From positions 1 to 39,521 of the IMG/VR virus record IMGVR_UViG_3300046691_000045: a stretch of DNA of 39,521 bases. One strand, given 5' to 3'. A model generated the notes under the pieces. The model was not told the DNA's origin and did no database searches. It saw only the letters and a program-made list of their open reading frames with translations. This stretch comes from a virus. A program made the position numbers and the translations under genes. Position 1 is the stretch's first letter. Every line of letters starts with the position of its first letter. This document shows positions 4,500 through 29,805 of the stretch, piece after piece.

Positions 4500-4504
4500 T
4501 CGAT

Positions 4505-6510: not shown

Positions 6511-6521
6511 GGAGAGGGAAC

Positions 6522-6862: not shown

Positions 6863-6863
6863 G

Positions 6864-7088: not shown

Positions 7089-7089
7089 G

Positions 7090-7752: not shown

Positions 7753-7760
7753 GAGAGAAC

Positions 7761-7886: not shown

Positions 7887-7887
7887 C

Positions 7888-8410: not shown

Positions 8411-8676
8411 TGAGCCGCCAGCCGACCGTGACCCTGACCGTGGATTGGTTCTCCGTAGTCGCTGAGTTGAAGCGGCACGGGTACAGCACCTACACCCTTG
8501 CGGCCATGGTCGGCGTCTCCAGACCCAGCATCGCGCATTGGGTCAACTACGGCACGATCCCCAACCACACGGATGGGGAGCGCGTCATAGCGTTCTGGAT
8601 GGACACGACGGGCAAGGATCGGGGGTCTCTTCCGATGAAGCCGCGTGAGTTGTCAGCCGCGAAGGTGCGCAATTAG
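8410..8676 (+). CDS. Helix-turn-helix protein, candidate late-gene regulator, 88 aa
   Basis: The gene starts at ATG 8410 overlapping the micro-ORF stop. Residues 26-47 (STYTLAAMVGVSRPSIAHWVNY) form a clear helix-turn-helix; a WFSVVAELKRHGYS helix precedes it. It is the last early gene, and its stop codon lies inside the first copy of the 18-bp motif that precedes three groups of late genes. A regulator acting on that motif is an attractive inference; nothing in the sequence proves it. Similar small HTH proteins are found at this position in related podoviruses. Confidence 0.7.
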   Translation: MSRQPTVTLTVDWFSVVAELKRHGYSTYTLAAMVGVSRPSIAHWVNYGTIPNHTDGERVIAFWMDTTGKDRGSLPMKPRELSAAKVRN

Positions 8677-8691
8677 ATCGGATTACAACCG
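8674..8691 (+). promoter_or_regulatory. Late-control motif, copy 1 (before morphogenesis genes)
   Basis: TAGATCGGATTACAACCG differs at one base from the two exact copies at 15075 and 29720. Just upstream, TTGTCA (8650-8655) and TTAGAT (8673-8678) are 17 bases apart, so this copy overlaps a reasonable sigma70-like promoter; the other two copies lack the -35. It begins in the stop codon of the HTH gene and lies about 50 bp before the first late gene. Confidence 0.6.
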
Positions 8692-8742
8692 GTGCAGATG
8701 TCTATCCTCAGTGCGTTTTCAAGCACAAACGAGGGATTGGCT

Positions 8743-9054
8743 ATGCCGCGCGGCAAACGCAACTACACCGTACAGACTCCGGGCGTACTGGAATCCGAGC
8801 CGACCGAGAGCGGTGAAATCAATACCGAAGTCGTCACCACGGATATCGGTATCGAGAACGTCCGCACGCTGACCGACCTCGACATCCTGGCAAAGCTCCA
8901 GGCGCTCGAAGCTGAGAACGCCAAGCTGCGCGCCGCATCTGGCCGCGTCGAGATGGACGGCAACAGCAAGTTCGCCCGTACCCATTCCTCCGATGTTGAC
9001 GTCAAGACCATCACGGCCCCGGTGCTTTGCGCTGACGGCTGGCTGGTCCCGTAA
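8743..9054 (+). CDS. First late gene: coiled-coil virion-associated protein, 103 aa
   Basis: ATG 8743 has GAGG eight bases upstream and is preferred over upstream starts at 8692/8698. The product has a basic N-terminus (MPRGKRNYTVQ), a Glu/Ser/Thr-rich middle and a coiled-coil stretch (LAKLQALEAENAKLRA, about 50-65), then a C-terminal CADGWLVP tail. Its place directly before the portal group suggests a structural or assembly role. No family recognised. Confidence 0.6.
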   Translation: MPRGKRNYTVQTPGVLESEPTESGEINTEVVTTDIGIENVRTLTDLDILAKLQALEAENAKLRAASGRVEMDGNSKFARTHSSDVDVKTITAPVLCADGWLVP

Positions 9055-9064
9055 GGAGCGCGCT

Positions 9065-9325
9065 ATGTGCGGATCACTCAGTTTCTCGAAGTTCCTTGAC
9101 CCTGCCGGTATCTGGAAGAAGGACGAAGCGCCGCCTGCGCCAGAGCCGATCACCAGCGCCAACCAGCAGCAACAGGCTGTAGACACGCAGGCTCAGGTCA
9201 ATGCGAATGCTCAAGCAGCGCAGCGCCGCAAGAAGTCGACCAGCCTGTACGGCACTGGCTCTGCGATGGGCGCATCTGACACCGGCACGGCGCTCGCTGC
9301 CGGCAAGACCACACTCGGGCAGTAA
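9065..9325 (+). CDS. Small MCGS-type protein next to the portal (T7 gp7.3-like position)
   Basis: AAGGAG six bases before ATG 9065 sets the start. The 86-residue product begins MCGSLSFSKFLDPAG and is rich in Ala, Gln and Pro with a low-complexity middle (ANQQQQAVDTQAQVNANAQ). Proteins with the same MCG start, Gln/Ala-rich centre and position just before the connector occur in T7-like and P22-like phages, where gp7.3 is a tail assembly factor carried in the virion. Assignment by context. Confidence 0.6.
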   Translation: MCGSLSFSKFLDPAGIWKKDEAPPAPEPITSANQQQQAVDTQAQVNANAQAAQRRKKSTSLYGTGSAMGASDTGTALAAGKTTLGQ

Positions 9326-10966
9326 ATGGCAATCGACCAAGACCGACGCGGCGCCGTCTACAAGCGACGGCTTGATGCGCTCAAGGGCGAACGGCAGCAA
9401 CACGTGACCACGTGGGAGGACTGCTATCGCTTCACGCATCCGATGCTCGGGACTGGCTTCTACGGCTACGACGCCAACGCATCGCAGGGACAGAACGACC
9501 GTGCGCGGCTGCTGGATTCGACTGGCACTGACTCGTCGCGCAATCTGGCGGCTGGTGTGCAGTCAGGCGTTACACCGTCTAACGATCAATGGTTCGACTT
9601 CGAAGTCGATCAGGAAACGGATGATGAGCGTCTGTGGTTGAGTGAGGCCGCGAATCTGCTGTGGCGCAACATCCACGCGTCCAACTTCGATGCGACTTCG
9701 TTTGGCTGCAATCTCGATGGCGTGATTGCCGGCTGGTTCGGGATCTACTGCGACGAGGCGCCGGGTGGTGGGTTCAACTTCGAGGCGTGGCCGATCAGCG
9801 AGTTGTACTGTGCATCGTCGCGTCCGGGCGGACCGATTGACATCGTCTACCGTGAGTTCAAGCTGACGGCAGAGCAGGCAGTCGAGAAGTACGGGCGAGA
9901 GAATCTCCCCGCCAAGATCGTGATGGCCAGCGAGAAAACACCCGACGAGAAGTATTGCTTCTGCCGCGTGATCGAGCCTCGCAAGGGCGGTACGTATGGC
10001 GTGCGTTCGAAGAACCTGCCGATTGCCTCTGTAACCGTCGAGCAGGAATCGTGTGCCATCGTTGAGGAAAAGGGCTACCACGAACAGCCAATCATCGTCC
10101 CGCGCTGGAACATCATGCCTGGCTCGGTCTACGCGACTGGCCCAGTGTTCGATGCGCTGCCGGATATGAAGCAACTGAACCTGCTGTGCGGGTTTGAGTT
10201 GGCTGCTGCCGAACTGGCCGTTGCCGGGATGTGGATCGCTGAGGATGACGGCGTGCTGAACCCGCGCCAGGTCAAGGTAGGCCCGCGCAAGATCATCATC
10301 GCCAATTCCGTGGACAGCATGAAGCCGCTTGTTACCGGCTCGAACTTCCAGGTATCGGAGTTGATGAAGGCGCAGCTACAAGGCCAGATTCGCCGCACGC
10401 TGATGGCTGACCAATTGCAGCCGCAAGACGGTCCGGCGATGACCGCGACTGAGGTACATGTCCGCGTCGAGTTGATCCGCCAGTTGCTTGGCCCGGTCTA
10501 TGGCCGCCTGCAAGCCGAATACCTGCAACCGCTGGTGACGCGCTGCTTTGGCATTGCCTTCCGCACGCCTTCGCCAACTGGTGCTGGCATCTTCGCGCCG
10601 ATCCCTGATTCGCTGCGTGGCCGTGAATTCAGCATCAAGTACGTGTCTCCGATGGCACGCGCCCAGCAGATGGAAGGCGTTATGGCTATCGAGCGCCTGT
10701 ACACAGACATCGGCGCGATTGCTGCTGCCAAGCAAGACCCAGCAGTCTTCGACAACATTGACGACGACGAGGCAGTACGCGTGGTGCAGGAGGGGCTTGG
10801 CGCTCCGTCTCGCATCATGCGCAAGTCTGAGGATGTACAGAAGATCCGTGAGGCGCGACTCAAGGCCCAGCAGCAGGCGCAACAGGCAGAGCAACAAGCG
10901 GCGCTCCAGCAGGAAGCAGGTAGCGCCATGATTCAGACGGCAGCGAAACAGGCACAGCCGGCATGA
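9326..10966 (+). CDS. Portal / head-tail connector protein (T7 gp8/BPP type)
   Basis: The 546-residue protein belongs to the podovirus head-tail connector family (PF12236 type). Visible features: N-terminal RRLDALKGERQQHVTTWEDCYRFTHP-type helix, DSTGTDSSRNLAAGVQSGVTPSNDQWF (about 65-90), central DALPDMKQLN, GPAMTATEVHVR (about 370) and a Gln/Ala-rich C-terminal coiled coil (515-535). Twelve copies form the ring through which DNA enters and leaves the head. The length is normal for the family. It starts directly after the preceding stop and overlaps the next gene. Confidence 0.93.
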   Translation: MAIDQDRRGAVYKRRLDALKGERQQHVTTWEDCYRFTHPMLGTGFYGYDANASQGQNDRARLLDSTGTDSSRNLAAGVQSGVTPSNDQWFDFEVDQETDDERLWLSEAANLLWRNIHASNFDATSFGCNLDGVIAGWFGIYCDEAPGGGFNFEAWPISELYCASSRPGGPIDIVYREFKLTAEQAVEKYGRENLPAKIVMASEKTPDEKYCFCRVIEPRKGGTYGVRSKNLPIASVTVEQESCAIVEEKGYHEQPIIVPRWNIMPGSVYATGPVFDALPDMKQLNLLCGFELAAAELAVAGMWIAEDDGVLNPRQVKVGPRKIIIANSVDSMKPLVTGSNFQVSELMKAQLQGQIRRTLMADQLQPQDGPAMTATEVHVRVELIRQLLGPVYGRLQAEYLQPLVTRCFGIAFRTPSPTGAGIFAPIPDSLRGREFSIKYVSPMARAQQMEGVMAIERLYTDIGAIAAAKQDPAVFDNIDDDEAVRVVQEGLGAPSRIMRKSEDVQKIREARLKAQQQAQQAEQQAALQQEAGSAMIQTAAKQAQPA

Positions 10967-11211
10967 GCGGACGTGATCTGAAGCAAGCGCATGCCATCGA
11001 CTATGCGCAGATCTTCGAAAGCCCTCAGGGGCAACTTGTGCTTTCTGAACTGATCGATGAGTTCTACAACACACCGTTCGTAAAGGGCGGCGCGGACGCG
11101 GCAAGACAAACGGATTACAACTGCGGCGCATTCGCCGTGATGCAGTTCATTCTTGACATGATAAACGCGGCTCAGACACAGCCGCTCGCAACACGCAAAA
11201 GGAGCAAATGA
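10963..11211 (+). CDS. Bbp19-like phage protein, 82 aa
   Basis: The gene overlaps the portal stop by four bases. The 82-residue product has the small helical Bbp19-type pattern (YAQIFESPQGQLVLSEL, then TDYNCGAFAVMQFILDMI) found directly downstream of the connector in BPP-1-like phages. The aromatic and Gly-rich G-x-R-x-V..I-like helix is typical. Role unknown; probably virion assembly. Confidence 0.75.
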   Translation: MSGRDLKQAHAIDYAQIFESPQGQLVLSELIDEFYNTPFVKGGADAARQTDYNCGAFAVMQFILDMINAAQTQPLATRKRSK

Positions 11212-11426
11212 TGCCCGGTAATTCCGACTTCACCCCTGGCACTGGCTGGACTGCAAACCCGCGCCCTGACTTTCGCTGGGAAGGCCCGCCACAGAACTTC
11301 GTGCCTGTCTTCGCTGGTCAGCCGCCTGTTGACGCTGGCCGCAATGGCGATCTGAGTGTTGACATCGTTGGTCGGAAGATCTACGAGAAGACTGGCGGCG
11401 CCTGGAACGCTGGCACCTCGTTCTAG
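11211..11426 (+). CDS. Small virion-like domain protein, paralogue of the SGNH hydrolase C-terminus, 71 aa
   Basis: ATG 11211 (or ATG 11208) follows GGAG. Residues 17-71 (PDFRWEGPPQNFVPVFAGQ..., ending GAWNAGTSF) align without large gaps to the last 55 residues of the next gene's product, about two thirds identical by eye. The duplicated unit is a beta-rich domain ending in GRNG-L-D-GR-IYEK-GAWN-GT-F, a style seen in phage tail and fibre proteins. The free-standing copy may be an accessory capsid or fibre subunit. Confidence 0.7.
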   Translation: MPGNSDFTPGTGWTANPRPDFRWEGPPQNFVPVFAGQPPVDAGRNGDLSVDIVGRKIYEKTGGAWNAGTSF

Positions 11427-11438
11427 GCGAGCATTGGC

Positions 11439-12740
11439 ATGCCGACTTACCAAGGGCTGGTCGCAACTGGTGGGCTAATCCCGTTCTGGCAGTCGGCCAG
11501 CACGCAGATGGGCAGTCGCAAGCGGCACACCGCTACGGTGGCGCTGTCCACGTTCAAGCTGCTGTTCCCGAACTTCACGGGGTTTGACACGCCGACTGGG
11601 GCAGCACTGAACCTGACAGCCAGCGTGGAATACCCCGTTGGCGTCTTCACGCAGGTCAAGTTCAGCGGGTTGGCTCAAGGCGTGGTGCCGAACGGTGGCG
11701 TGCTGATGTCAGATGATGTTTCTGTAGCAATTCCTGCTGGTGCGAATTTCTACATCCGCACATACGGGACGAATACGGCAGGGGTGATTGCTGCGCGCCA
11801 AACGAACCCGCAAGACTACGACTTTGGCGAAGCACGCGAGTCTGGCGCGTCCGGTATCACGGACAAGACGATGGGCGGGACGTACACCAATTCGTTCCCC
11901 GGCTATTGCTACAGCGCGATGGCGATCATTGGCACGACGAACAAGCCTTCCGTGCTGGTGCTGGGTAGCTCGACGGCAGGCGGCTTCAACAACCAAGGCG
12001 GTCTGCCATATGGCCCGGACAATGGGACGATCACGCCTAGCCTTGCGCCAACCATTGCGAACACGTTGCTGTCTGCCTACAACCAGACTGCGGCTACGGC
12101 GAATGCGGCATCGAATCTGATCCCGAATGCTATCGGCCAGTACATCACACATGTGGTGTGTGCCATGGGGCAGAACGACATTCGCAGCGGAGATTCCGCC
12201 ATTACGGTGCGAGCCACGATTGCAGCCTTCCGCGCCAAGTACGCGAGCGGCAAGCAGTTCTTCGTGCAGACGTTCGGGCCAGAGACATCCTCTACAGATA
12301 GCTGGGCGACGACCGTCAATCAGACGCCTGCCGCTTCGAATGCTGAGCGAATCGCCTTCAACGGGCTGGTGCGGTCTGGATCGGTTGCATCAAACGGTTA
12401 CTTCGAGATTGCAGACGCATGGGAAACCGCGCGCAACTCGGGGCTGTGGAAAGTCCCCGCATGGACCGATGACGGCTTGCACGCGCAGGCTGTGGGCTAC
12501 CAGTTCATCAAGGACAACAACCTAGTAAGCCCAGCGCTGTTCGTGCTACCTGACGATGGCCTGACTGTGACGTCAGTGCCTGATTTCAGGTGGAGCGGAC
12601 CGCCGCAAGTATTCATCCCCGTATTCCCGGGCAAGCCGACTGATGGCACAGGGCGTAACGGCAACCTTTGCATTGACACCGCAGGGCGACGTATCTATGA
12701 GAAGGTCGCTGGCGCGTGGAATAACGGGACGGCGTTCTAA
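11439..12740 (+). CDS. Virion SGNH/GDSL-type hydrolase (putative polysaccharide esterase), 433 aa
   Basis: Residues 1-165 are a beta-rich domain. Residues 170-362 carry SGNH-hydrolase blocks: VLVLGSSTAGG (S177/S178 nucleophile in block I), AMGQND (N246, block III) and WTDDGLH (D345, H348, block V). Residues 380-433 repeat the 71-residue protein just upstream. SGNH enzymes in virions commonly remove acetyl groups from surface polysaccharide. The gene sits among head genes rather than with the tailspike. The nucleophile context is GSS, not GDS. Catalysis is inferred from motifs. The ribosome site is weak. Confidence 0.82.
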   Translation: MPTYQGLVATGGLIPFWQSASTQMGSRKRHTATVALSTFKLLFPNFTGFDTPTGAALNLTASVEYPVGVFTQVKFSGLAQGVVPNGGVLMSDDVSVAIPAGANFYIRTYGTNTAGVIAARQTNPQDYDFGEARESGASGITDKTMGGTYTNSFPGYCYSAMAIIGTTNKPSVLVLGSSTAGGFNNQGGLPYGPDNGTITPSLAPTIANTLLSAYNQTAATANAASNLIPNAIGQYITHVVCAMGQNDIRSGDSAITVRATIAAFRAKYASGKQFFVQTFGPETSSTDSWATTVNQTPAASNAERIAFNGLVRSGSVASNGYFEIADAWETARNSGLWKVPAWTDDGLHAQAVGYQFIKDNNLVSPALFVLPDDGLTVTSVPDFRWSGPPQVFIPVFPGKPTDGTGRNGNLCIDTAGRRIYEKVAGAWNNGTAF

Positions 12741-13336
12741 TGGCTAAAGACATGATGGTTCTAACCGGCTCAGGGTGGCAGGTAGAGCCTAAGCAGTCAG
12801 AGCGCATCCGGGTAGATGACGAAGAGATTGGCTTCTACGATGGGCGGGAGTTCCGCACATTCCGTGAGTTCTGGGCGGGCGCTTTGCCATCCAGCACAGC
12901 TATCGCTGCCGGCGCAACATATGTGATTCGGGCTATCGTGCCGATTGATATCGTCCTGTTCAGCCTGCAACTTGGCTTCGACAATGGGCAGATCCGGGTG
13001 GAAACGGTGGTCGGGGGAACACCGGGAGGGGCTTTTGCAGACGTGTTGCCGATCTTCGGAGCGAATAACATGGCAGTGCAGCGGGCGCTTGTGACGGGAG
13101 GCGGGTACTACCTGCCGACTGTAACGCTTGCTGGTGGTGGTACGCATACAGGCGGGACGGTGCTCGACGTCATCCGGCTGAAGATCGAGAATTCTACGGG
13201 TGCGGCAGCGAGTGTAGGTAACTCGCCTGACGACGAGCGCGGGGTCGCGGCAAATACCTATTACTTCCGAATTACCAATATCGGTGCAGGGGTAGCAGAA
13301 GGCACCTTTAAGGCGAGATGGGAGGAAAAACCGTGA
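12740..13336 (+). CDS. Virion structural protein, 198 aa
   Basis: Overlaps the hydrolase stop by one base (TAATG). After about 45 residues with YDGREFRTFREFWAG, the product is beta-rich (ALPSSTAIAAGATYVIRAIVP, then a Gly/Thr-rich stretch and FRITNIGAGVAEGTFKARWEEKP). Related proteins accompany fibre genes in podoviruses. Possible decoration or fibre protein; no specific family. Confidence 0.65.
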   Translation: MAKDMMVLTGSGWQVEPKQSERIRVDDEEIGFYDGREFRTFREFWAGALPSSTAIAAGATYVIRAIVPIDIVLFSLQLGFDNGQIRVETVVGGTPGGAFADVLPIFGANNMAVQRALVTGGGYYLPTVTLAGGGTHTGGTVLDVIRLKIENSTGAAASVGNSPDDERGVAANTYYFRITNIGAGVAEGTFKARWEEKP

Positions 13337-13348
13337 TCGGAGAACAAA

Positions 13349-13669
13349 ATGCCCGTACAACGCCTGGACGACTGGAACCGTGATCCAATGGATTACGGTT
13401 ACTTCCGCTTTCGACAAGTTTTCACAAGCACGACTGACCCAATCCTGATGAAGTCTGGCATGTCAAAGATCAGCGTCGCGCTGCATCCGACGCCATCTGC
13501 AAGCATCGAGTACACGCTGTCAATGCCGGCTGACGTTGCGGCGGGGACGGCGAAGTGGATTGTGTGGCCGCTTGGCACGATTACAGCTAGCAACGCTGAT
13601 GAGTTGATGAGCACAGCGACGGCTATTCGCGGTATCGGAAACGGCACGCTTGAGATTACCGCATCATGA
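13349..13669 (+). CDS. Small beta-rich structural protein, 106 aa
   Basis: GGAGAACAAA precedes ATG 13349. The 106-residue product resembles a compact beta-sandwich: SKISVALHPTPSASIEYTLS, a WIVWPLG segment, and GNGTLEITAS at the end. It overlaps the collagen-like gene by four bases and probably forms part of the same head or fibre assembly. No named family recognised. Confidence 0.6.
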   Translation: MPVQRLDDWNRDPMDYGYFRFRQVFTSTTDPILMKSGMSKISVALHPTPSASIEYTLSMPADVAAGTAKWIVWPLGTITASNADELMSTATAIRGIGNGTLEITAS

Positions 13670-14133
13670 GCATCTGGCGCTCTGCATTGCAAGGTCCGCA
13701 AGGACAACCCGGCGCGACCGGCCAAACCGGGGCTACTGGTGCGACGGGTACGCCCGGCACCAATGGGAGTCCTGGCGCCACAGGGGCCCCCGGGGCGACT
13801 GGCGCAACTGGCCCCGCTGGGGCGCTGGTCTATGACGCCGGTGGGCTAGTTACGAATGCCAAGATCTGGTCTGGCACAGCCGTTACGGATTCGAACGGCG
13901 CATGGTCTGTCGATTACTCGGCGGCCGGGTTCACGCAGGCTCCGCGCGTCGAGGCTACGTGCGTCGTGGCCGGCACGACACCGGCGTCTGTTGCCAATGC
14001 GAAGACTGCAGCGAAGTCGCTGGTAGCCGCGAATGGTATTGTGGCGGTTCCAGCCCTATCAGTTCTGGGCCTGATAAGCGTTACGCTTGGCGGGGCTGGG
14101 ATAAATGTTGATGTTGTGGCCGTTGGTAAATAG
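13666..14133 (+). CDS. Collagen-like (Gly-X-Y) head or tail fibre protein, 155 aa
   Basis: After nine residues, fourteen uninterrupted Gly-X-Y triplets (10-51; GPQ GQP GAT GQT ... GPA) form a predicted collagen-like triple helix. Residues 54-155 are a beta-rich globular head (AKIWSGTAVTDSNGAWSVDY, then LSVLGLISVTLGGAGINV). Trimeric fibres of this plan occur in many phages. The gene lies among head genes, so a head fibre is as likely as a tail fibre. The repeat region is unusually GC- and repeat-rich at DNA level, as collagen-like segments are. Confidence 0.8.
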   Translation: MSIWRSALQGPQGQPGATGQTGATGATGTPGTNGSPGATGAPGATGATGPAGALVYDAGGLVTNAKIWSGTAVTDSNGAWSVDYSAAGFTQAPRVEATCVVAGTTPASVANAKTAAKSLVAANGIVAVPALSVLGLISVTLGGAGINVDVVAVGK

Positions 14134-14166
14134 CCCGAGACAGGGCGAACGACTAGGAGAAGTGCA

Positions 14167-15021
14167 ATGCAATACCTCATCAAACGAATTCTGATGGACG
14201 CGGTTTCTGGTGGTGCGGAGGGCGGGGATGGTGGCGCGGGTGGTGGGGCTGCTGCGACAGCCGTTACCCCCGCGCCCGATACCGCGCCTGTCACGCCGCC
14301 TGCTACGGCACTGTCTGCCGCTACTCCGCCTGCCGAAAACCCGTATGACTTCGTCCCCGAAAAGTTCCGGGTCAACAAAGAGGACGGCGCTTTCGACGCG
14401 GACGCCAGCCTGCGCAAGCTGACAGAGAGCTACACGAACCTAGAAAAGTTCAAGGGCGAGCCGGCACCGAAGACTGCGGACGAGTACAAGGTTGCGATCC
14501 CTGAGCAGTTCAAAGAGGCATTCACGGCAGACGATCCGCAGTTCAAGGAGTTCGCCACGAAGGCCCATGAGCTGGGGATGAATCAGTCTCAGATGGACTT
14601 CATGATGTCGAAGTTCTTCGAGATCGTACCTGCTGCGGCTGAAGGCGGCGCGGCGCTTACCGTCGAGTCCTGCGATGCGGAACTAGGCAAGGTCTGGAAA
14701 TCGCCTCAGGAAATGCAGGCCGGCAAGGAAGCGGCGATTGCCGCAATCGAACACCTGGCGCGCGGCTATGGGCTGAATGCCGCAGACATCGATGCGCAAC
14801 TGGGCAACAGCCCGGTGTTCATCCAACTGATGGCGAAGCTCGCGCCTGAGTTCCGTGAGGACACCACCGTCACGGGCGGCATGATGAACAGTCAGGAAGA
14901 CATCGGCGGCTTGATGCGCTCGCAGGCATACAAGGACGAGAAGCACCCGGACCACAGCAAGACCATGGCTAAGGTGCGCGCCCACTACGACCGCAAGCAC
15001 GGCACCAATCCGGTTTACTAA
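14167..15021 (+). CDS. Capsid scaffold / assembly protein, 284 aa
   Basis: TAGGAGAAGTGCA precedes ATG 14167. The N-terminal 60 residues are Gly/Ala/Pro/Thr-rich and disordered. Then follow NPYDFVPEKFRV and a SLRKLTESYTNLEK segment, helical PKTADEYKVAIPEQ and LGMNQSQMDFMMSKF, and a basic C-terminus (AKVRAHYDRKHG). This is the standard architecture of T7 gp9-like scaffolding proteins, whose C-terminus binds capsid. The gene directly precedes the capsid gene across a terminator. Confidence 0.88.
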   Translation: MQYLIKRILMDAVSGGAEGGDGGAGGGAAATAVTPAPDTAPVTPPATALSAATPPAENPYDFVPEKFRVNKEDGAFDADASLRKLTESYTNLEKFKGEPAPKTADEYKVAIPEQFKEAFTADDPQFKEFATKAHELGMNQSQMDFMMSKFFEIVPAAAEGGAALTVESCDAELGKVWKSPQEMQAGKEAAIAAIEHLARGYGLNAADIDAQLGNSPVFIQLMAKLAPEFREDTTVTGGMMNSQEDIGGLMRSQAYKDEKHPDHSKTMAKVRAHYDRKHGTNPVY

Positions 15022-15042
15022 AGACTCCCTCCTAGTGAGATT

Positions 15043-15067
15043 GCCCGGATTCGTCCGGGCTTTTTTT
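15043..15067 (+). terminator. Intrinsic terminator after scaffold gene
   Basis: A perfect seven-pair GC-rich stem GCCCGGA/TCCGGGC closed by a TTCG tetraloop is followed by seven T. It lies 22 bases after the scaffold stop and eight bases before motif copy 2. Confidence 0.93.
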
Positions 15068-15074
15068 CGCCATT

Positions 15075-15092
15075 TAGATCGGATTGCAACCG
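15075..15092 (+). promoter_or_regulatory. Late-control motif, copy 2 (before capsid gene)
   Basis: TAGATCGGATTGCAACCG, identical to the copy at 29720. It sits eight bases after the terminator's T-run and 168 bases before the capsid start, the expected site for re-initiation of transcription. No acceptable -35 hexamer is present, so a simple sigma70 promoter does not explain it. Confidence 0.65.
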
Positions 15093-15259
15093 AGTACGCG
15101 CAGCATCATGCACACCATTCGGCCCGCAGTGGCGAGCGGACAACCGATAACAGCCCGAAGCGATAGCGCCCGCCGACGCATCAGCCCGTAAGCTACCAGG
15201 CCCGTTCGCGGACAACCTGAAAGGCGAAGTCAACATCCATCCCCTTTTAGGAGAGGCAT
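15093..15259 (+). promoter_or_regulatory. Long untranslated leader of the capsid gene
   Basis: No gene is seen in these 167 bases. GCGGACAACC occurs twice (15136-15145 and 15208-15217), with CAGCCCG-AAGC-like words between. The leader ends in a strong AGGAG site six bases before ATG 15260. It may stabilise the most abundant late transcript; this is inference. Confidence 0.4.
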
Positions 15260-16147
15260 ATGCCTACCGTAAACGACACGATCACAGCCGGGTATGTACA
15301 GCAGTTTGCTGACACCTGGGAACTGGCATCGCAGCAAACCGATTCGCGCCTGCAAGTCACCACCAAGGATCGCGGCAAGATCACTGGTTCGGCTTTCACG
15401 TCGAACAACCTCGGCGCTACCGCCGCTCAGCCCGTTACCTCGCGGCTTGGCGACACCGTCTGGACCGACATTGCGCACAGCACGCGCCTGGCTACCATGT
15501 CTGACTTCGACTGGTCCACGCCGCTGGACTCGTTCGACGTGCCAAAGCTGCTGGCAAACCCGCAAGGCGAATACATGATGGACGGTATCGCCGCCCTGAA
15601 TCGCCAGAAGGATGCGCTGATCTACTCGGCGTGGATCGGCAGCGCTCAGGAAAAGACCAGCGAGGGTGGCCCCTACGCCCCTGTCGTGGTCCCGGCTGGT
15701 CAGAAGATCGTAGCGGGCGCCACCGGCATGACGAAGGCCAAGCTGCTGGCCGCGAAGAAACTGTTCCGCAAGAACGAGGCTGACGAGCACAACGGCAAAC
15801 AGTTGTTCATGCTCTACAACTCGGAAATGCTGGAAGACATCCTTGCCGATACGACCCTGACGTCTGCCGACTTCATGGCCGTCAAGATGCTGCAGGAAGG
15901 CGACGTGGCCGGCAAGTGGCTGGGCTTCAAGTGGATTCCGTACGAAGGTCTGCTCATCACTGGCGGCACCACGTACACCACTGTGGCCGGCTGCGTGGGC
16001 AACGTCGACTTCGGCATGGGCCTGAATCGCGTGATCGACGTGGGTCCGCGTCGTGACAAGAAGATGGCCGTGCAGATCTACGCGCAGGAATCGTACGGTG
16101 CCGTGCGCAAGCGCGAAACTGACGTGGTCCTGATTGACTTCGTCTAA
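15260..16147 (+). CDS. Major capsid protein (BPP-1 Bbp17-type)
   Basis: The 295-residue protein resembles the capsid family of BPP-1-like podoviruses: an N-terminal arm (TVNDTITAGYVQQFADTW, LEVTTKDRG-like QVTTKDRGKITG), a conserved block SDFDWSTPLDSFDVPKLLANPQG (about 88-110), RKNEADEHNGKQLFMLYNSEM and a C-terminal KKMAVQIYAQESYGAVRKRE domain. In that family the fold is a permuted HK97 type stabilised by a cement protein, whose gene follows. Strong ribosome site. Length is normal. Confidence 0.9.
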   Translation: MPTVNDTITAGYVQQFADTWELASQQTDSRLQVTTKDRGKITGSAFTSNNLGATAAQPVTSRLGDTVWTDIAHSTRLATMSDFDWSTPLDSFDVPKLLANPQGEYMMDGIAALNRQKDALIYSAWIGSAQEKTSEGGPYAPVVVPAGQKIVAGATGMTKAKLLAAKKLFRKNEADEHNGKQLFMLYNSEMLEDILADTTLTSADFMAVKMLQEGDVAGKWLGFKWIPYEGLLITGGTTYTTVAGCVGNVDFGMGLNRVIDVGPRRDKKMAVQIYAQESYGAVRKRETDVVLIDFV

Positions 16148-16164
16148 TCGCCAAGGAGAACGAA

Positions 16165-16629
16165 ATGGCTGAAATCAATTCCCAACAGGTAGCGAAGACG
16201 ATCACTATCCCGGTCGTCAAGCTCAACCCTACCGAAAAGCATGGCCGTGTGCGCCAGATGTTCGCCAAGCTGCCGGCAACCTATGCGGCACTGAACATCG
16301 CCGACACCGTGTACCTGGGCAACATCCCCGGCAATGCGCGGATCGTCGGCGCCAAGGTCAGCAACGCGACGGGCACGGCATCGTCCACGCTCGGCGTTGG
16401 TCTGCGCTCGCTGTCCGGTACTGTGATTGCGGCACTTGGCCTGTTCTCGGCAGTGGACATTGCCACGGCTGGCGACAAGACCGTCGCGCTGAACGGGACG
16501 CTGGTTGCCAACGGCGCGGACTACACCACACCGGCAGGCGCTGAATCGCAGGTCTACGCGACGATTGCCGGTGCTGCTACCGGCGCCAACCAGTCTATCT
16601 CTGTCACCATCTTCTACGTGACTGACTGA
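16165..16629 (+). CDS. Capsid cement/decoration protein (Bbp16-like)
   Basis: The 154-residue protein follows the capsid gene by 17 bases with AAGGAG before the ATG. After a short N-terminal arm it has a jelly-roll-like pattern (DTVYLGNIPGNARIVGAKVS, TLGVGLRSLSGTVIA, NQSISVTIFYVTD), characteristic of Bbp16-type cement proteins that clamp capsomers from outside. The capsid-cement pair is bracketed by terminators, which fits its need for high equal expression. Confidence 0.85.
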   Translation: MAEINSQQVAKTITIPVVKLNPTEKHGRVRQMFAKLPATYAALNIADTVYLGNIPGNARIVGAKVSNATGTASSTLGVGLRSLSGTVIAALGLFSAVDIATAGDKTVALNGTLVANGADYTTPAGAESQVYATIAGAATGANQSISVTIFYVTD

Positions 16630-16654
16630 GCGGCAGGCGATGTCTGAATGAGAG

Positions 16655-16677
16655 CGGGGGCCAAGTGCCCCCGTTTT
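16655..16677 (+). terminator. Intrinsic terminator after cement gene
   Basis: Seven-pair stem CGGGGGC/GCCCCCG with loop CAAGT and four T, 25 bases after the cement stop. The next tail gene begins 17 bases downstream and has no visible promoter, so partial readthrough is likely. Confidence 0.88.
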
Positions 16678-16693
16678 CTCTGGAGAAAATGAA

Positions 16694-17326
16694 TTGGCCT
16701 CGAAAACTGGAATCTGCTCAAACGCTCTTCTGCTCATCGGCTCGCAGACGATCAACGATCTGGAAGAGGGGACAGACCGCGCACGTACTGCGGCCAACCT
16801 GTATCCGTTCGTGTTCGAGCGCGTTCTCAGGGAGCATTCGTGGAACTGCGCCAAGCGTCGCGTGATTCTGGCACCGATGGTTGCCGCGCCCGTATTCGAC
16901 TGGAAGTATCAGTTTGCGTTGCCGGGTGACTGGATCCGAAACATCCAGATCGGATATGACCGTGATGGATCGAACGGCGCACAGGGTTCGTGGGCATGGA
17001 TTGCCGGCGAACACTACATCATGGAAGGTCGGCGTATCTTGACCAACTTCGATACGCTGCCGCTCGTATATATCTCGAATCTGACGACAGAAGCTGAGTT
17101 CGATGCCAGCCTGACCTACACCATGACGGTTGCAATGGCTGCTGCCATGGCCTACCCGATCACCAAGTCCAGCAGCGTGCAGCAGACGATGGAACAACTG
17201 CTTGCTGAAACGCTGCGCAAGGCTCGCAACTACGATGGACAGGATGACCCGCCGCAGACTCTTGGTGACAGCCCCATGTATCAGGCCCGATTTGGCACGT
17301 TCCCCCTGATCCCCGGGAGGTCGTAA
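16694..17326 (+). CDS. Tail tube protein A / adaptor (T7 gp11-like), TTG start
   Basis: The 210-residue product matches the gp11 opening (ASKTGICSNALLLIGSQTIND then EEGTDRARTAANLYPFVFERVLREHSWNCAKRR) and the helical C-terminus of this adaptor, which forms the ring below the portal. The start is TTG 16694, eight bases after GGAG: family members begin exactly here, and the nearby ATG at 16689 is out of frame. Length is typical. Confidence 0.9.
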   Translation: MASKTGICSNALLLIGSQTINDLEEGTDRARTAANLYPFVFERVLREHSWNCAKRRVILAPMVAAPVFDWKYQFALPGDWIRNIQIGYDRDGSNGAQGSWAWIAGEHYIMEGRRILTNFDTLPLVYISNLTTEAEFDASLTYTMTVAMAAAMAYPITKSSSVQQTMEQLLAETLRKARNYDGQDDPPQTLGDSPMYQARFGTFPLIPGRS

Positions 17327-19726: not shown

Positions 19727-19736
19727 GGGAGCCGCC

Positions 19737-20665: not shown

Positions 20666-20674
20666 GGGGAAGAC

Positions 20675-23047: not shown

Positions 23048-25299
23048 TGGGTCTGGACTCGCTCTATCAGGACGACATCAATACGACGCTTGATGACCGG
23101 CAGCAGCGGCCGGTTGCTGCGCCGCGCCAGGAATCCGGCATTTCCGTCTGGAACACGATCAAAGCGCCATTCAAGGGCGGCGCTGCTGGTGTGGTCGAGG
23201 TCGGTGGCTTTGGCGCGGATACGCTCGGCGCCTTCGGGGATGTGGCTGGCGGCTACTTGTCGCAGACCGATCCTGGAAATCTGCTATCTCCCGAAGAGAT
23301 GGACAAGCGGCGCAGGGAAGGCGATGAGGCACGTCAACGGGTGGCGACTGGCGAGGCATTCAGTACCGACATCGGTACGGGTCTTCGGGCTACTGCGCGC
23401 TCCATGATGCCGGACCCGAATACCTCGAATGCGGTAGAGAACGTGCTGTTCGGCGCCGGTCGCGGACTGACAAAGGCTATCGGCTATGCTGCAACGGCTA
23501 CTCCTTTGGTAGGGGCTACGCTGTTTGGTGCTGACGAGGCGCTGACGGAATCCGACCGGCTGAAGGCGGAAGGTGTTGACATAACCACGCGGACTAAGGT
23601 GGGCGCGGTCACTGGCGTCTTCTCTGGCGTCGGGGTTGCGCTGCCTGTCGCTGGCCGTACGATTGCACAGACTGCGGCACTTGTCGTGGCGGGTGGTCCA
23701 GCTTCCTATATCGCCCAACAGGCCGCGTCGCGCGAGATCCTTCGCAGTCAGGATTACACGCAGATCGGCGATCAGTACAACCCTTTTGATCCGGTGGGAC
23801 TGGCTGTCTCGACGCTGCTGCCGGCTGGCTTTGCGGCTGTGGCTGGGCGCGGGATTCGTGCACAACAGCCGATTGCCGCACAGCGTTCCTTGCTGGACAT
23901 GGCCGGAAACGAACGCAAGGCGCTCCGCTACGACGCGCCGCAATTGGACGACTACGCGGTACAGGCTGCTACGCGCGCCGGGGTGCCGCCTGAGGTCATG
24001 CTTGCCGTGAAGAATGCGGGCGAGCGATCCGGCAACAGCAATGTCGTATCTTCTGCTGGTGCTAAGGGGATCATGCAGTTCGTTAAAGGCACATGGGATC
24101 AATACGGGAAAGGTCGAGACATCCGCGATCCTGTGGCTTCTATCGATGCAGCGGCAGACTTCCTGGCTGATCTTGGCAGGCAGTATGGCGGTGATTGGCG
24201 CGCGGCGATTGCCCACTATAACGGGGGCGGCAAGGCCGGTGAAGCGGTGCGCGCTGGTCGTGCCGCACCGTCTGACGAAACGGTCAAGTATCTGCAACGC
24301 ACGGATGCCTATATCGCCACGAAGTCTGGTGAGGCTGTCGGCAAGGCGGCAATGGGTGATCCAGAAGCCGTACCTGCTGCCCGCGCCCAACTCGTGCGCG
24401 ATACCGTAGAGTCGTGGAACCTCAAGGAGCCTACGGATATCGAGGGTTCGCAGCAACACCTTGAAGCCATCGTTCGCGCGTCGGATCAGCTTGGCTCGGG
24501 TAGCCGCGTGGAAGTGGGCGACGTCATCCAGTTCAATGAGGCGGAATCGGCGCGGCTTATCGATAACGTTTCGACTCGGGCGGTGCGCTCAATCCTGTCC
24601 GATACCGAGTTCGTTGGCGGCAATGAGATATCCCGCGCGCTGGGTAGCGATGAGCGTCAGAACTTCGTCAAGACCGTAATGGACGAAGATACGCCGGTCG
24701 GACGCATCCATGGCGAGGAAACGCCTACCGCAGTCATCATCAATGACGCAGAGATATCCAAGAATTCGCAGGGGAAGGGGCTGGGCAAAGCCGCCTACGA
24801 TGAGATCGCCCAATACGCAGCAGCACGTGGCAAGACGCTGCAAAGCGATTCGTCGGTGACGGAATCTGCGTCCGGTGTCTACAAGGCTCTTGAGCGAGAA
24901 GGCTACACGGTCAAGCAAAATCCGGCAGCAGTCTCGGCGAATGGCCGCATCAAGACACCGGACAATTCCCCGGTGTTCGAGGTATCCGGGCAGAAGCGCA
25001 CCGAACCAGCATCTGGCGCCAAGGAATCTTCCCCCGCACTGGATAATGCTGGCACCGAGCCAATTGGCGCAGAACCCAAGGCGCCGTCCGCTGAAGTCGC
25101 TCAAGCCGTGCAGGCTATCAACGATCAGGCCGCGCAGATCGCCAAGGCAAATCCGGATATGCTCGTGCAACTGGATGGCATGGATCAACCAATGCGCTTG
25201 GCGGACGTGCTAGAAGCCATTAAGAAGGAAGCGGATGCAGAAAAGGCGGATGCTCCGCTGATCGACGTGGCTGCGCGCTGCTTCCTGTCCGGCGCCTAA
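23047..25299 (+). CDS. Internal virion protein with lytic transglycosylase and GNAT-like domains, 750 aa
   Basis: Glycine-rich, hydrophobic segments (40-70, 150-165, 186-265) precede a soluble lytic transglycosylase domain (304-400): E326 as catalytic acid, SSAGAKGIMQF and AAIAHYNGGG. Such domains cut peptidoglycan for DNA passage, as in T7 gp16. Residues 550-625 carry QGKGLGKAAYDEI (Q575, G578, G580) and ESASGVYKALEREGY, resembling the acetyl-CoA site of a GNAT enzyme, with the N-terminal strands not obvious. A low-complexity tail follows. It overlaps the previous stop. The GNAT call is tentative. Confidence 0.82.
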   Translation: MGLDSLYQDDINTTLDDRQQRPVAAPRQESGISVWNTIKAPFKGGAAGVVEVGGFGADTLGAFGDVAGGYLSQTDPGNLLSPEEMDKRRREGDEARQRVATGEAFSTDIGTGLRATARSMMPDPNTSNAVENVLFGAGRGLTKAIGYAATATPLVGATLFGADEALTESDRLKAEGVDITTRTKVGAVTGVFSGVGVALPVAGRTIAQTAALVVAGGPASYIAQQAASREILRSQDYTQIGDQYNPFDPVGLAVSTLLPAGFAAVAGRGIRAQQPIAAQRSLLDMAGNERKALRYDAPQLDDYAVQAATRAGVPPEVMLAVKNAGERSGNSNVVSSAGAKGIMQFVKGTWDQYGKGRDIRDPVASIDAAADFLADLGRQYGGDWRAAIAHYNGGGKAGEAVRAGRAAPSDETVKYLQRTDAYIATKSGEAVGKAAMGDPEAVPAARAQLVRDTVESWNLKEPTDIEGSQQHLEAIVRASDQLGSGSRVEVGDVIQFNEAESARLIDNVSTRAVRSILSDTEFVGGNEISRALGSDERQNFVKTVMDEDTPVGRIHGEETPTAVIINDAEISKNSQGKGLGKAAYDEIAQYAAARGKTLQSDSSVTESASGVYKALEREGYTVKQNPAAVSANGRIKTPDNSPVFEVSGQKRTEPASGAKESSPALDNAGTEPIGAEPKAPSAEVAQAVQAINDQAAQIAKANPDMLVQLDGMDQPMRLADVLEAIKKEADAEKADAPLIDVAARCFLSGA

Positions 25300-25308
25300 G
25301 GAACCAAG

Positions 25309-27822
25309 ATGACCCCGAATTGCAAGAAAGCCGTAGAACAGGCCGCAGGACGAAAGCTGACCGAAGCCGAAATCCGCAAGATCGATGACCGGCTATCGGC
25401 AACCATGCGCCAGATGGCAAAGCGTGACCCGGCTGCGTGGCAGGCAATGCCGCGTGACGCCCGTGTCTTGGCTGCGTCTCAGGAAGCTATGGCTGCGATC
25501 CAGGCTGAGGCCGATCTGAAGGTGACGCGCGCCAACCTGCAAATCGTCAAGACGGCAGAGGTCGAAAACCGCATTGGTTCCATTCAAGGTCAGTTCTCAG
25601 ACAACCGCAGTCAGGCGCTTGTCCGCGACATGGACGTCACGAATGCCTATGTAAATGGTGTCAAGCTGGACAACATATCGCAACTGATGGACCTGATTAA
25701 TGCGGCGGAAAGCACGCAGGGTACGTCAGGCTTGCAACGCGGCCTGATGTTCATGTTCGATGCGGAGAATCCTGGCATGACGCGGGATTTGTCTGTCGAG
25801 ATCATCGGCAATGCCAATGGCGTGACGGGTAACGGTCTGGCTCAGAAGGGTGCACGCGCCTGGCTTGATGTCATCGAGCGGATGCGCCAGCGATTCAATG
25901 CCAACGGCGGCGATGTGGGAAAGTTGGATTACGGCTACCTGCCCCAGCCGCATGACACCATCCGGGTTCGCGGGGACGGGTCTGCCAAGGCGCAAGATGA
26001 TTGGGCGCAGAAGACGCTGCCGCTATTGGACCGCAGCCAATACCTGAACGAAGATGGTACGCGCATGGCAGATGGTCAAGTTCTGGACTTCCTGCGCGAG
26101 GCATGGACGACGATCTCTACGGACGGCATGAACAAGATCGATCCTGGCGGCAAGCCGCCTGCCGGGAGTTCTGCGAAGGCGAATGCCGGTCGCCAGCACC
26201 GCCAGATCCACTATCGGGATGGTGACGCTTACCTGGAATACATGGGGCAGTATGGCGCTGGCAGCATGTATGACGCCATGGTCGGCCACGTCGGCAGGCT
26301 TGCTCGGGATATCGCACTTATCGAGCGATACGGGCCGAATCCCAATGCACAGATGCGCTTGCAATTCGACCTTGCCGCGCGCGATGCTGGGACGTCCATC
26401 GACAACCTCCCTCGCTCGTTTGGTCTGCGCCCGCAATCGTATTGGGATGTTCTGAGCGGTACAACCGGCTCTCCGGTGTCTGGCCGTATCGCAGAAATTG
26501 GTACGCACATCCGCAATATCCAGACGTTCGGCAAGCTCGGCGGCGCCGTGCTTTCCAGCCTGACCGATACCGGGACGTACTTCGTAACGACCGGGTATAA
26601 CAACCTGAGCTATTGGGAAGGGCTGAAGAACATCGGCAAGCAGTTCGACAGCGATACGCGCGACTTCCTGAACATGCATGGGGTCATTGCCGAATCCATG
26701 ATCTCCGATCTGAATCGGTGGAGTGGCGACAACATCTCTCAGAACTGGTCCGGGCGCCTCGCCAATTCGACCATGAAACTGTCGCTAATGAACTGGTGGA
26801 CAGACAGCCTGCGCCGCGCATACAGCATGACGCAGATGAATGGATTGGCACGCATGGCTAAGAATGACTGGTCTGCGCTGTCCGAGTATGACCGTTGGCG
26901 CATGACCAGCAAGGGGCTGACTGAAGGCGATTGGGGCGTGATCCGCAAGGCAGAACTTTCCACGCACAACGGCATGGAGTTCCTGACCCCTGAATCGATC
27001 CGGGCTAGCGGCGCGCAGAACGCGGATCAGGTTGTGGCCAAGGTGCTGGGACTGATCTCTGACGAGTCCGAATATGCGGTGCTGAACCCGGATCTGGCGA
27101 CGCGCGCTATCGCATCGGGAGGCGGCATCCAGCGCGGGACTTTGACTGGAGAGCTTGCGCGGTCTGTCACGCAGTTCAAGTCGTTTCCTATTGCCATGAT
27201 TTCCCGCCATTGGTCGCGGATGCTGGAGGCTCCGGGCAATATCGAGGGCGCGCCTGTCATGGCGAATCGCGCATTCTACGGTGCCGCGATGATGGTCAGC
27301 CTCACGGCGCTTGGGGCCATTGCCTACCAGAACAAGCAGATTGTGCAGGGCAAAGACCCTTACGACATGACGCAACCGAAGTTCTGGCTGCGCGCGTTGG
27401 CTCAGGGCGGAGGGCTTGGCATCGTTGGCGATTTCCTGCTGACGGACCCGACAGAAAACCCCGGCGATTCCACGGCCAACGCGATCAAGTCTCTCGCCGG
27501 TCCGACCATCGGTAGTGCGTTTGACATCGTCGGCAAGCTAGGCGTCGAGAACGTCTATCAGGCCGCGCATGGCAAGGATACGCATGTTGGCGCTGAAGCG
27601 GTGCGCGTCGCCCGCAGTCATCTTCCATTCGTTGGGATCTGGTACGGCAAGGCGGCGCTTGACCATGCTGTGCTCAATTCACTGAACGAATCCCTGTCGC
27701 CGGGGTATTTGTCTAAAATGCGGCAACGGGCGCAGAAAGACGGTAACGCAGATTACTGGTGGCGTCCCGATGAGGGCCTGCCATCGCGCGCCCCTGACTT
27801 TGGTAATGCACTAGGAGAGTGA
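25309..27822 (+). CDS. Large internal virion protein (gp16-like ejection partner), 837 aa
   Basis: The 837-residue protein is largely helical with aromatic-rich segments (SYWDVLSGTTGSPVSGRI; SLMNWWTDSLRRAYSMTQMN) and two hydrophobic stretches (FYGAAMMVSLTALGAIAYQ; LGIVGDFLL). It matches the C-terminal part of large ejection proteins in BPP-1- and T7-like phages, here separated from the transglycosylase into its own gene. The C-terminus (WWRPDEGLPSRAPDFG) is typical. It likely enters the host inner membrane with the DNA. Confidence 0.78.
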   Translation: MTPNCKKAVEQAAGRKLTEAEIRKIDDRLSATMRQMAKRDPAAWQAMPRDARVLAASQEAMAAIQAEADLKVTRANLQIVKTAEVENRIGSIQGQFSDNRSQALVRDMDVTNAYVNGVKLDNISQLMDLINAAESTQGTSGLQRGLMFMFDAENPGMTRDLSVEIIGNANGVTGNGLAQKGARAWLDVIERMRQRFNANGGDVGKLDYGYLPQPHDTIRVRGDGSAKAQDDWAQKTLPLLDRSQYLNEDGTRMADGQVLDFLREAWTTISTDGMNKIDPGGKPPAGSSAKANAGRQHRQIHYRDGDAYLEYMGQYGAGSMYDAMVGHVGRLARDIALIERYGPNPNAQMRLQFDLAARDAGTSIDNLPRSFGLRPQSYWDVLSGTTGSPVSGRIAEIGTHIRNIQTFGKLGGAVLSSLTDTGTYFVTTGYNNLSYWEGLKNIGKQFDSDTRDFLNMHGVIAESMISDLNRWSGDNISQNWSGRLANSTMKLSLMNWWTDSLRRAYSMTQMNGLARMAKNDWSALSEYDRWRMTSKGLTEGDWGVIRKAELSTHNGMEFLTPESIRASGAQNADQVVAKVLGLISDESEYAVLNPDLATRAIASGGGIQRGTLTGELARSVTQFKSFPIAMISRHWSRMLEAPGNIEGAPVMANRAFYGAAMMVSLTALGAIAYQNKQIVQGKDPYDMTQPKFWLRALAQGGGLGIVGDFLLTDPTENPGDSTANAIKSLAGPTIGSAFDIVGKLGVENVYQAAHGKDTHVGAEAVRVARSHLPFVGIWYGKAALDHAVLNSLNESLSPGYLSKMRQRAQKDGNADYWWRPDEGLPSRAPDFGNALGE

Positions 27823-27823
27823 A

Positions 27824-28165
27824 ATGCGCCCGGATCAAATCGAGCAATTGAAGGACTTGGCCGAACGGCTGGCAGACGTCTTCATTATGGAGGCCGATCC
27901 TGTGAACTGGAGCGGCGCCGGCAAACTCCCATCCGACATGGGGAAGGACGAGCGCGGTAATCGTGTATGGGAGAAGCGTGGCGCCATGGCAACAGGTGGC
28001 GTTCTGAAATACACGCTGGATCTGACTGCGCAGGGCCACGCCGGAAAGATCAACGATGACGAAGAACAGGCGCATCGGGATGACGAGTTGGACACGAAGA
28101 TCGCGGATGCGCAGAAGCGTGCAGCGGCTGCACTTGACCGGGCTATGAAGAAAGCCAAAGCATGA
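27824..28165 (+). CDS. Putative small terminase subunit or packaging partner, 113 aa
   Basis: The 113-residue helical protein (MRPDQIEQLKDLAERLADVF..., C-terminus AAAALDRAMKKAKA) overlaps the large terminase start by four bases and follows the ejection genes, the position of gp18-like small terminases in T7-type genomes. No DNA-binding motif is obvious, so the function rests on position and size. Confidence 0.5.
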   Translation: MRPDQIEQLKDLAERLADVFIMEADPVNWSGAGKLPSDMGKDERGNRVWEKRGAMATGGVLKYTLDLTAQGHAGKINDDEEQAHRDDELDTKIADAQKRAAAALDRAMKKAKA

Positions 28166-29805
28166 AAGACAAGGTCGATTTCCTGACCTTCTTTTTCATT
28201 TGGGCGGATCGGATGGGATGGGAGGTTCCTGATGTCCACGTGCGCGCCTGCCACTGGCTGGAGCACCGTGGGCTATTAGCCGTTCTCCGCTGCTTCCGTG
28301 GCTTCGGCAAGTCCACGCTGCTTGCCGTCTACAACGCCTGGCGCTACTACCTAGATCCAACCTACCGGATTCTGCATCAGGGCGAATCAAACCCGACTGC
28401 TTATAAGACCAGCCGCGATACACAGAACGTATTGCGCAACCATCCGCTGACGCAAGGGTTACTGCCAGATGGCACCGGTACCGTCGAGCAATGGTGGGTG
28501 AATGGTTCAAACGATGCCCGTAATGCGAGCATGTACGCACGGGGCATCCTGTCTAACGTCACATCCGCCCGTGCTAACGAAGCCCAAAACGATGACGTTG
28601 AGGCGAGCGGTAACGCGCAGACGCCTGAGTCGCGGGAGAAGATGCGATACCGGCTCGGCGAGCAAACCCATATTCTGGTTCCGGGCGGCAGGAAACTGTT
28701 CATTGGAACGCCGCATACCCATAAAACGATCTATGACGAAATCGAGGCGCTAGGCGCTGATTGTCTGACGATCCGTATGTTCCAGAAGGAACAACGCATC
28801 GAGGATGCACAGTCGCGCCAGTACGCTACCAAGTTCCGCCCGGAGTATGTATTCACGGGCATTGGCAAGGATGCGAAGCTTCTTTCAGAAGGCGATGATT
28901 ACCAGCTTGAAGACGGCGCAATCATCTTCGCCAAGCCCCCCGGTTGCCTTGTCGATATGTACTCGGAATGCGCATGGCCTGAACGATTTGACCGGCAGGA
29001 ACTGCTGAAGCGTCGGCATGAGACGCGAACCATCGGGGAATGGATGTCGCAATATCAACTACACAGCACATCCGTTGTGGATGTTCGCCTTGACCCTGAG
29101 CACTTGCGCGCCTACGAAACCGACCCGAAGGTGGTCAAGGCAAACGGCGAAATCCGCATGATGCTGGGGCAAAAGCAGATCGTTTCTGCGCGCGCCTATT
29201 GGGATTGTTCGCTCGGTAAGGTGACGAGCGATGCGTCAGCACTGTCCATCATTCTTGAGGACGATTCGGGCAACTACTATTGGCATGTGGCTGAAGGTCT
29301 GACCGGTGAGTTTGCGGAATTCGAGAACGATAAGAACGGGAATATAACGGGCGGACAGGTGATTCAGGCATGCGAACTGCTGCGCAAATACCAGATCCCA
29401 ATGGTGTATGTTGAAAACAACGGTGTTGGCGCGTTCGTGCCTCAATTGCTGCGCAAGGCGCTTAAGCAGGAGAAATTGAACTGCGCCGTTCGAGAGGTCA
29501 CGCAGACCACGAACAAGAATATCCGCATCCTGAACGGTATAGAAGGGCCGCTCCGATCTGGAGTTTTGTGGGCGCACACTTCTGTGCTGGATGGTCCGCT
29601 GTGGGACCAGATGAAAGAATGGAACCCTGAAGTAAAGACACAGCCTGACGATTACCTGGAGTCTGGCGCTAACGCCATCCTAGAGGCCCCCGTCCGTATC
29701 GGCAAGGTGATCGGGGAAATAGATCGGATTGCAACCGCGCGCGTGACGCATGATTGGCGCCCAAATGGGGGGGTATTTGAAGTGACCCTCGAAACCCAAT
29801 CATGA
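28162..29805 (+). CDS. terL: Terminase large subunit (T7 gp19-like)
   Basis: The 547-residue packaging motor has the deviant Walker A CFRGFGKST (44-52), Walker B region NDDVEASGN (D144, D145, E147), a coupling segment (LFIGTPHTHKTIYDEI) and a C-terminal RNase-H-like nuclease beginning ARAYWDCSLG, with later VENNGVGAF and DYLESGANAI motifs. It translocates DNA into the head using ATP and cuts it. Copy 3 of the late motif lies in its last 90 bases. Length is normal. Confidence 0.95.
   Translation: MKDKVDFLTFFFIWADRMGWEVPDVHVRACHWLEHRGLLAVLRCFRGFGKSTLLAVYNAWRYYLDPTYRILHQGESNPTAYKTSRDTQNVLRNHPLTQGLLPDGTGTVEQWWVNGSNDARNASMYARGILSNVTSARANEAQNDDVEASGNAQTPESREKMRYRLGEQTHILVPGGRKLFIGTPHTHKTIYDEIEALGADCLTIRMFQKEQRIEDAQSRQYATKFRPEYVFTGIGKDAKLLSEGDDYQLEDGAIIFAKPPGCLVDMYSECAWPERFDRQELLKRRHETRTIGEWMSQYQLHSTSVVDVRLDPEHLRAYETDPKVVKANGEIRMMLGQKQIVSARAYWDCSLGKVTSDASALSIILEDDSGNYYWHVAEGLTGEFAEFENDKNGNITGGQVIQACELLRKYQIPMVYVENNGVGAFVPQLLRKALKQEKLNCAVREVTQTTNKNIRILNGIEGPLRSGVLWAHTSVLDGPLWDQMKEWNPEVKTQPDDYLESGANAILEAPVRIGKVIGEIDRIATARVTHDWRPNGGVFEVTLETQS
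29720..29737 (+). promoter_or_regulatory. Late-control motif, copy 3 (before tailspike gene)
   Basis: TAGATCGGATTGCAACCG is identical to the copy at 15075 although here it encodes part of the terminase (IDRIAT). It lies 80 bases before the tailspike start. Conservation despite coding constraint supports a DNA-level role. Confidence 0.6.

Follow-up and report, generated by a model that had tools for sequence, protein, structure and literature searches.

Repeated sites before the late operons of a phage genome are very likely promoters switched on by a small HTH protein

The sites that are repeated before the late operons of a virus from IMG/VR (record IMGVR_UViG_3300046691_000045) are very likely the upstream halves of late promoters that use the host's RNA polymerase and are switched on by a small HTH activator. 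We have no transcript, binding, or expression data. We will refer to the stretch of DNA that we analyzed, which is 39,521 nucleotides, as the window.

The simplest mechanism, and the one that we propose, is activation at the step of initiation. Each promoter would be served by the host's polymerase together with its principal sigma factor (sigma70). A 16-bp dyad at about -40 to -25 would take the place of the -35 element, a weak -10 (NANNNT) would lie 12 bp downstream of the dyad, and transcription would begin about 7 bp past the -10. The HTH protein, which would be made late in the early region, would bind the dyad as a dimer and recruit or position sigma/RNA polymerase at the weak -10. The capsid, tail, packaging, and lysis operons would thus all be on together once the early region had been transcribed.

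Sites and proposed promoter anatomy

The late genes of the window encode portal, scaffold, capsid, tail tubular proteins, internal virion proteins, terminase, and tailspike. An 18-bp motif, TAGATCGGATTGCAACCG, is found exactly at 15075-15092 and 29720-29737 and with one change at 8674-8691, always on the + strand. These copies had been reported by a sequence-only reading of the window, along with their placement before the morphogenesis, capsid, and tailspike genes (one of them after a terminator and one in the terminase gene), and all of this held. So did the claim that a triple match is far beyond chance: just 0.03 matches with 3 or fewer mismatches are expected in the window, and none of 100 shuffles had 3 such matches. 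Copy 1 starts at the stop codon of the HTH gene (which ends at 8676), and the ATG of the first late gene (8743) is 69 bp further on. Copy 2 sits after an intrinsic terminator and 185 bp upstream of the capsid ATG (15260). Copy 3 is within terL (28162-29805), and the tailspike start (29818) is 98 bp downstream. The closest thing to it elsewhere in the window is an 18-mer with two copies, at 36560 and 37191.

The functional unit is better drawn as the 16-mer AGATCGGATTRCAACC with a -10 hexamer 12 bases downstream. The window's sites fit this pattern without gaps: AGATCGGATTRCAACC and 12 bases are followed by TATCCT, CATCAT, or CATGAT, so the -10 is present in 3/3 copies. (An early gapped alignment of the window's sites to the canonical sites was dropped; the ungapped alignment keeps the upstream T-run and the spacing of the -10.)

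We label the sites by their slots. Site A (AGATCGGATTACAACC, 8675..8690, + strand) is the proposed activator half of late promoter 1, and it is in the same slot in relatives. Its -10 (TATCCT, 8703..8708, + strand) is at the fixed +28 offset from the first base of the site, and the predicted start of transcription is ~8715. Behind this promoter is the first late gene (8743..9054, + strand), whose start was set by comparison with relatives; a longer frame of this gene has phmmer matches in G002 and G006. Site B (AGATCGGATTGCAACC, 15076..15091, + strand) is the proposed activator half of the capsid-operon promoter, which has CATCAT (15104..15109, + strand) at the same offset and a predicted start at ~15116. 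Site D (AGATCGGATTGCAACC, 29721..29736, + strand), inside the 3' end of terL, is the proposed activator half of the tailspike/lysis promoter; CATGAT (29749..29754, + strand) is again at +28, and the predicted start is ~29761.

The sequence-only reading had also listed a weaker variant at 16947, and this claim failed. The variant requires a one-base gap, lacks a -10 at the conserved spacing, and was absent from both scans. We rejected it as a further copy because of its wrong spacing and its missing -10.

The spacing of the -10 is shown by a broader alignment. We aligned 88 non-redundant copies from all slots on their palindromes, and the downstream bases were not used in aligning them. NANNNT, which resembles the -10 of sigma70 promoters, is found at +28 in 70 of the 88 copies, versus no more than 6 copies at any of the other offsets between 16 and 45. 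Outside of the site, there are two peaks of information: A at +29 and T at +33 (73/88 copies each). These correspond to the two most important bases of the -10 hexamer. The aligned copies also have a run of A/T just upstream of the site and a bias towards a pyrimidine and then A at the expected start. At capsid loci, all 143 of the copies that were oriented by sequence alone were on the + strand with NANNNT at +28.

The dyad covers about -40 to -25 (its center is at about -32.5), which leaves no room for a -35 element; the site occupies its place. We did not find a -35 hexamer in or around the dyad: at spacings of 16 to 18, there are 0 to 2 matches out of 6, and the hexamer at 17-bp spacing is GGATTG or GGATTC, with 0/6 matches to TTGACA. 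The -10 elements are themselves weak. As for T7-type promoters, the largest open reading frame in 1-9300 is 314 amino acids, and among the subset of reading frames that we scanned, none matched an RNA polymerase family.

Might the repeats instead act as hairpins in the RNA of a read-through transcript, for example to signal antitermination or attenuation? The arms can pair in many relatives, both arms change together between lineages, and site B follows a terminator. But the window's copies form no stem; positions 4 and 11 of the arms are a non-pairing A.C, without compensation, in 30 of the 88 canonical-group copies; and the -10 at a fixed spacing puts the element upstream of the start of the transcript. 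Because the window's copies are unpaired and relatives often have the A.C mismatch, we rejected this reading for the window, and we consider it all but excluded. The same two observations favor action as DNA over action as RNA.

A separate element lies between the capsid promoter and its gene. The leader RNA of the capsid gene (15114..15259, + strand; ~145 nt) is conserved in alignments with relatives and contains two hairpins of one design. Each has 3 base pairs, a bulged C opposite AYAM, and then a GC stem. Of the 21 relatives compared, nearly all have them, and compensatory changes are present. A search of the window against Rfam gave no family match, and energy-based folding gave no significant result for the leader by itself (z -0.24). 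The leader could be a new structured RNA that controls capsid expression.

Two other features of the window are worth recording. The 18-mer with two copies is an exact direct repeat, CCATTCTTCGAGCCTTCA (36560-36577 and 37191-37208), in a region of minus-strand genes. Also, the ends of the record overlap (1-126 and 39396-39521, ~125 bases), which implies a genome of ~39.4 kb that is either circular or circularly permuted.

The same slots in relatives, with sites that change in concert

Sites are found at the window's slots, and on the same strand, across its relatives. The commonest form is a 16-bp near-palindrome, GGTCGGGATTCCGACC, and its variants, which we call canonical. Slot A is directly before the first late gene and just past the HTH gene. 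Slot B is 176-193 bp (about 180) before the capsid gene, and slot D is in the last ~80 bases of terL; canonical sites fill these slots in 72 of 78 and 75 of 80 loci, respectively. Some relatives also have a site before terS (slot C) or before the lysis genes (slot E), and a prophage of E. coli STEC383 has five copies. Variable genes are inserted beside some of the copies in relatives. In most of the loci that miss, the site is present in a drifted form (L004, L006, L009, L011, L084, L087, L161, and L162).

The closest relatives are L004 (with a capsid that is 99% identical at the amino acid level) and L084 (with a terL that is 90% identical), which are both from one other metagenome. In them, the site ahead of the capsid gene reads TAGTTCGGATTGCAAACG and the one within terL reads TAGTTCGGATTGCAAATG; both are precisely where the window has its copies, and two changes are identical in TAGTTCGGATTGCAAACG and TAGTTCGGATTGCAAATG. 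The capsids of more distant relatives are 52-63% identical, and many of these relatives are enterobacterial prophages. The exact 18-mer had no match in IMG/VR, and the DNA of the window had no match among phage records. Exact-match searches fail because the motif drifts; only a comparison by slot works.

Loss of the motif from relatives with the same gene order would have refuted the sequence-only reading. We ran this check: a motif is kept at the same slots, though its letters drift in concert in each genome. Within a genome, sites differ by an average of 1.00 mismatch in 16, while sites in the same slot of different genomes differ by 4.29 (0/20,000 within-slot permutations). This pattern includes site D, which is inside a coding gene. 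Such likeness within a genome is what a single reader that acts on all of the sites would predict.

The genome G003 provided a test of the prediction, as it has a homolog of the HTH protein and lacks the canonical motif. It contains TTCCGGGATTCAAGAC, which is exact at slots A and D and has three changes at slot B, and a -10 is found at +28 in each of these three slots. We also searched de novo for any 16-mer that is shared by slots A and B and has the fixed -10 spacing, using an independent set of bacterial genomes, two further scans of viruses, and the earlier relatives. We found a shared site with 3 or fewer mismatches in 33 of 39 loci. With shuffled B regions, the best result was 4 mismatches (2 of 780 trials), and otherwise there were more. 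The new versions of the site include TGGCGGGATTCCGCCA (from Roseateles), CGCAGAGATTTCTGCR, MGCCGGGATTCCGGCC, GGCCCGGACTCGGGCC, and CATCAGGAATCTGAGC. Across versions, both halves of the site usually change together, as expected of the site of a dimer. Overall, where the HTH protein of a lineage has diverged, that lineage has a repeated site of its own, in the same slots and with the same spacing to the -10.

Not every locus fits. In L194, an Orbaceae prophage with a homolog of the HTH protein, we found no site shared by A and B at the fixed spacing. The automatic site search also failed for L024, L045, L077, L073, and L190, because site A is farther from the HTH gene or the spacing of the -10 is off by 1-2. 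Finally, Acinetobacter phage TPWB-05 (L165) and Alcaligenes phage Piluca (L166) have a homolog of the HTH protein, but their repeated element is a different one and lacks the fixed -10. Many of the late genes in these phages are preceded by this element, CACCCAACAAACC, which is on a single strand (at 13018, 16226, 17912, 20543, 26824, 30322, and 35297 in L165 and at 16631, 19863, 21372, and 24003 in L166). Often, a hairpin that resembles a terminator comes after it, immediately ahead of the start codon; no fixed -10 was seen. CACCCAACAAACC might be another late control signal.

We also considered that the repeats might be sequences at module boundaries that are kept by recombination, or sites for packaging or replication. 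The sites do lie at the borders of modules, and the variable genes beside some copies would fit. But a -10 at a fixed spacing, a single orientation, and drift in concert would not be expected, and site D is inside a coding gene. This explanation is all but excluded.

The HTH protein as the proposed reader

The last gene before the late region (8410..8676, + strand; its longest frame starts at 8308) encodes a small Xre-like HTH protein of 88 amino acids, which is the proposed late activator. It matches the profile of PHROG 16553 (E = 1.5e-15, residues 8-80). Outside of the structural genes, it is the only protein from the window with homologs in all 13 of the relatives that we tested; apart from this gene, the early regions of these relatives are unrelated. 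Where there was sufficient sequence ahead of site A, almost all relatives encode a homolog there, and its gene often abuts or overlaps the site. These relationships are shown by comparing sequences. That the protein reads the sites, that it acts as a dimer, and that it is an activator are inferred, and binding data are absent. It also counts against this reading that the window's site is only poorly palindromic.

The AlphaFold2 model of the protein is confident and helical (mean pLDDT 85.7). According to Foldseek, the nearest structures are Xre-type repressors and controller (C) proteins (P22 c2, SinR, C.Kpn2I, and C.BclI), but these hits are weak (E = 0.012 or worse and TM ~0.55). The match to HTH_3 (PF01381; E = 0.0013, 19.1 bits) is under the curated cut-off of 23 bits. 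There was only a marginal match to chains of CII (E = 0.66-0.77), and library searches with the protein gave no match to the Lpa, C, or Ogr families. A protein search of phage records with the window's HTH protein had no match, as it is too diverged.

The protein and the sites seem to evolve together, with each relative having its own version of the site. After removing the effect of capsid distance, the distance between recognition helices is moderately correlated with the distance between sites (partial r = 0.29; 47 of 5,000 permutations were as high). Also, the residue before the conserved aromatic of helix 3 is G, E, or Y in 16/16 genomes with canonical sites versus 2/9 genomes with other sites (p = 7e-5), with the caveats that this comparison was chosen post hoc and ignores relatedness.

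The main alternative is that the sites are late promoters but are read by a host factor or by an unidentified phage protein, while the HTH gene merely travels along. We have no binding data for the HTH protein, its gene adjoins site A and could hitchhike, and the correlation between helix and site is moderate. On the other hand, no other non-structural protein from the window is common to all 13 relatives, and divergent helices go with divergent sites. A conserved host regulator would not fit with changes in concert within each genome and differing forms among related phages. We think that another reader is unlikely.

Alternatively, the dyads might be operators where the HTH protein represses or delays the late genes, with promoters that work without it. 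A dyad over the -35 region is a typical form of repressor operator, the label of PHROG 16553 is transcriptional repressor, and the fold neighbors include the P22 c2 repressor. However, with no -35 hexamer and weak -10s, the core promoter looks dependent on help, and the HTH gene is the last gene in the early region, which is the usual place for a late activator. Repression is very unlikely; our preference for activation is an inference from the anatomy of the promoters and the order of the genes.

Our preferred reading remains that the HTH protein activates the late promoters. The sequence-only reading had inferred a late promoter or activator site, perhaps read by the HTH protein whose gene ends at copy 1. 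This is supported and is the best-backed reading, without data on transcript starts or binding. The fixed spacing of the -10, and the finding that only the HTH gene is conserved outside of the structural genes, are evidence beyond what that reading had.

Relation to known systems

The proposed system is a known kind, late promoters with a phage-encoded activator, with a different type of protein and a different geometry. In phage P1, Lpa is required for the late operons (PMC8201110), and in Mu, the C protein acts at the lys, I, P, and mom promoters (PMC4461284). P1 Lpa, Mu C, and P2 Ogr are small phage activators of dispersed late promoters that use the host polymerase and have a poor or absent -35. 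We propose that the window is similar in all of these respects, with a single activator for several promoters. Unlike Lpa, C, or Ogr, the protein from the window is an Xre-like HTH protein, and a 16-bp dyad centered at about -32.5 replaces the -35.

The sites for CII of phage lambda and MotA of phage T4 lie over or in place of the -35, with the -10 kept. The activator site in the window is likewise at the -35 region with the -10 kept, but CII reads direct repeats, while the sites of the window's group are dyads. Controller proteins of restriction-modification systems are small Xre-type dimers that activate from dyads near -35. C.Kpn2I and C.BclI are among the fold neighbors of the HTH protein. 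In contrast to the HTH gene, which would act on dispersed late operons of a phage, controller proteins regulate their own operon. The sequence family of the HTH protein, PHROG 16553, is labeled "transcriptional repressor" without a test, and our data point to late activation.

In the open-licence literature that we searched, we found nothing on point about the motif or the system. An earlier description in a subscription journal is not excluded.

We lean, without much margin, towards a bolder reading: that a widespread group of podoviruses and prophages has an undescribed class of late activator, whose specificity comes in at least 10 versions, with matching sites at the same promoters. If so, these phages would offer a set of naturally occurring activator/promoter pairs, each different from the others, and a code for recognition could be deduced from them. 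Even apart from that reading, site and protein seem to drift together under a fixed geometry, so the group is a natural test of the way in which a regulator shifts its specificity for DNA at multiple promoters simultaneously, and it may supply promoter/activator pairs that work independently of each other. Late activation by the HTH protein would also give a concrete and testable function to a protein family that is now labeled as hypothetical or as a repressor, and it would explain how a large and little-studied group of prophages turns on the genes for its particles.
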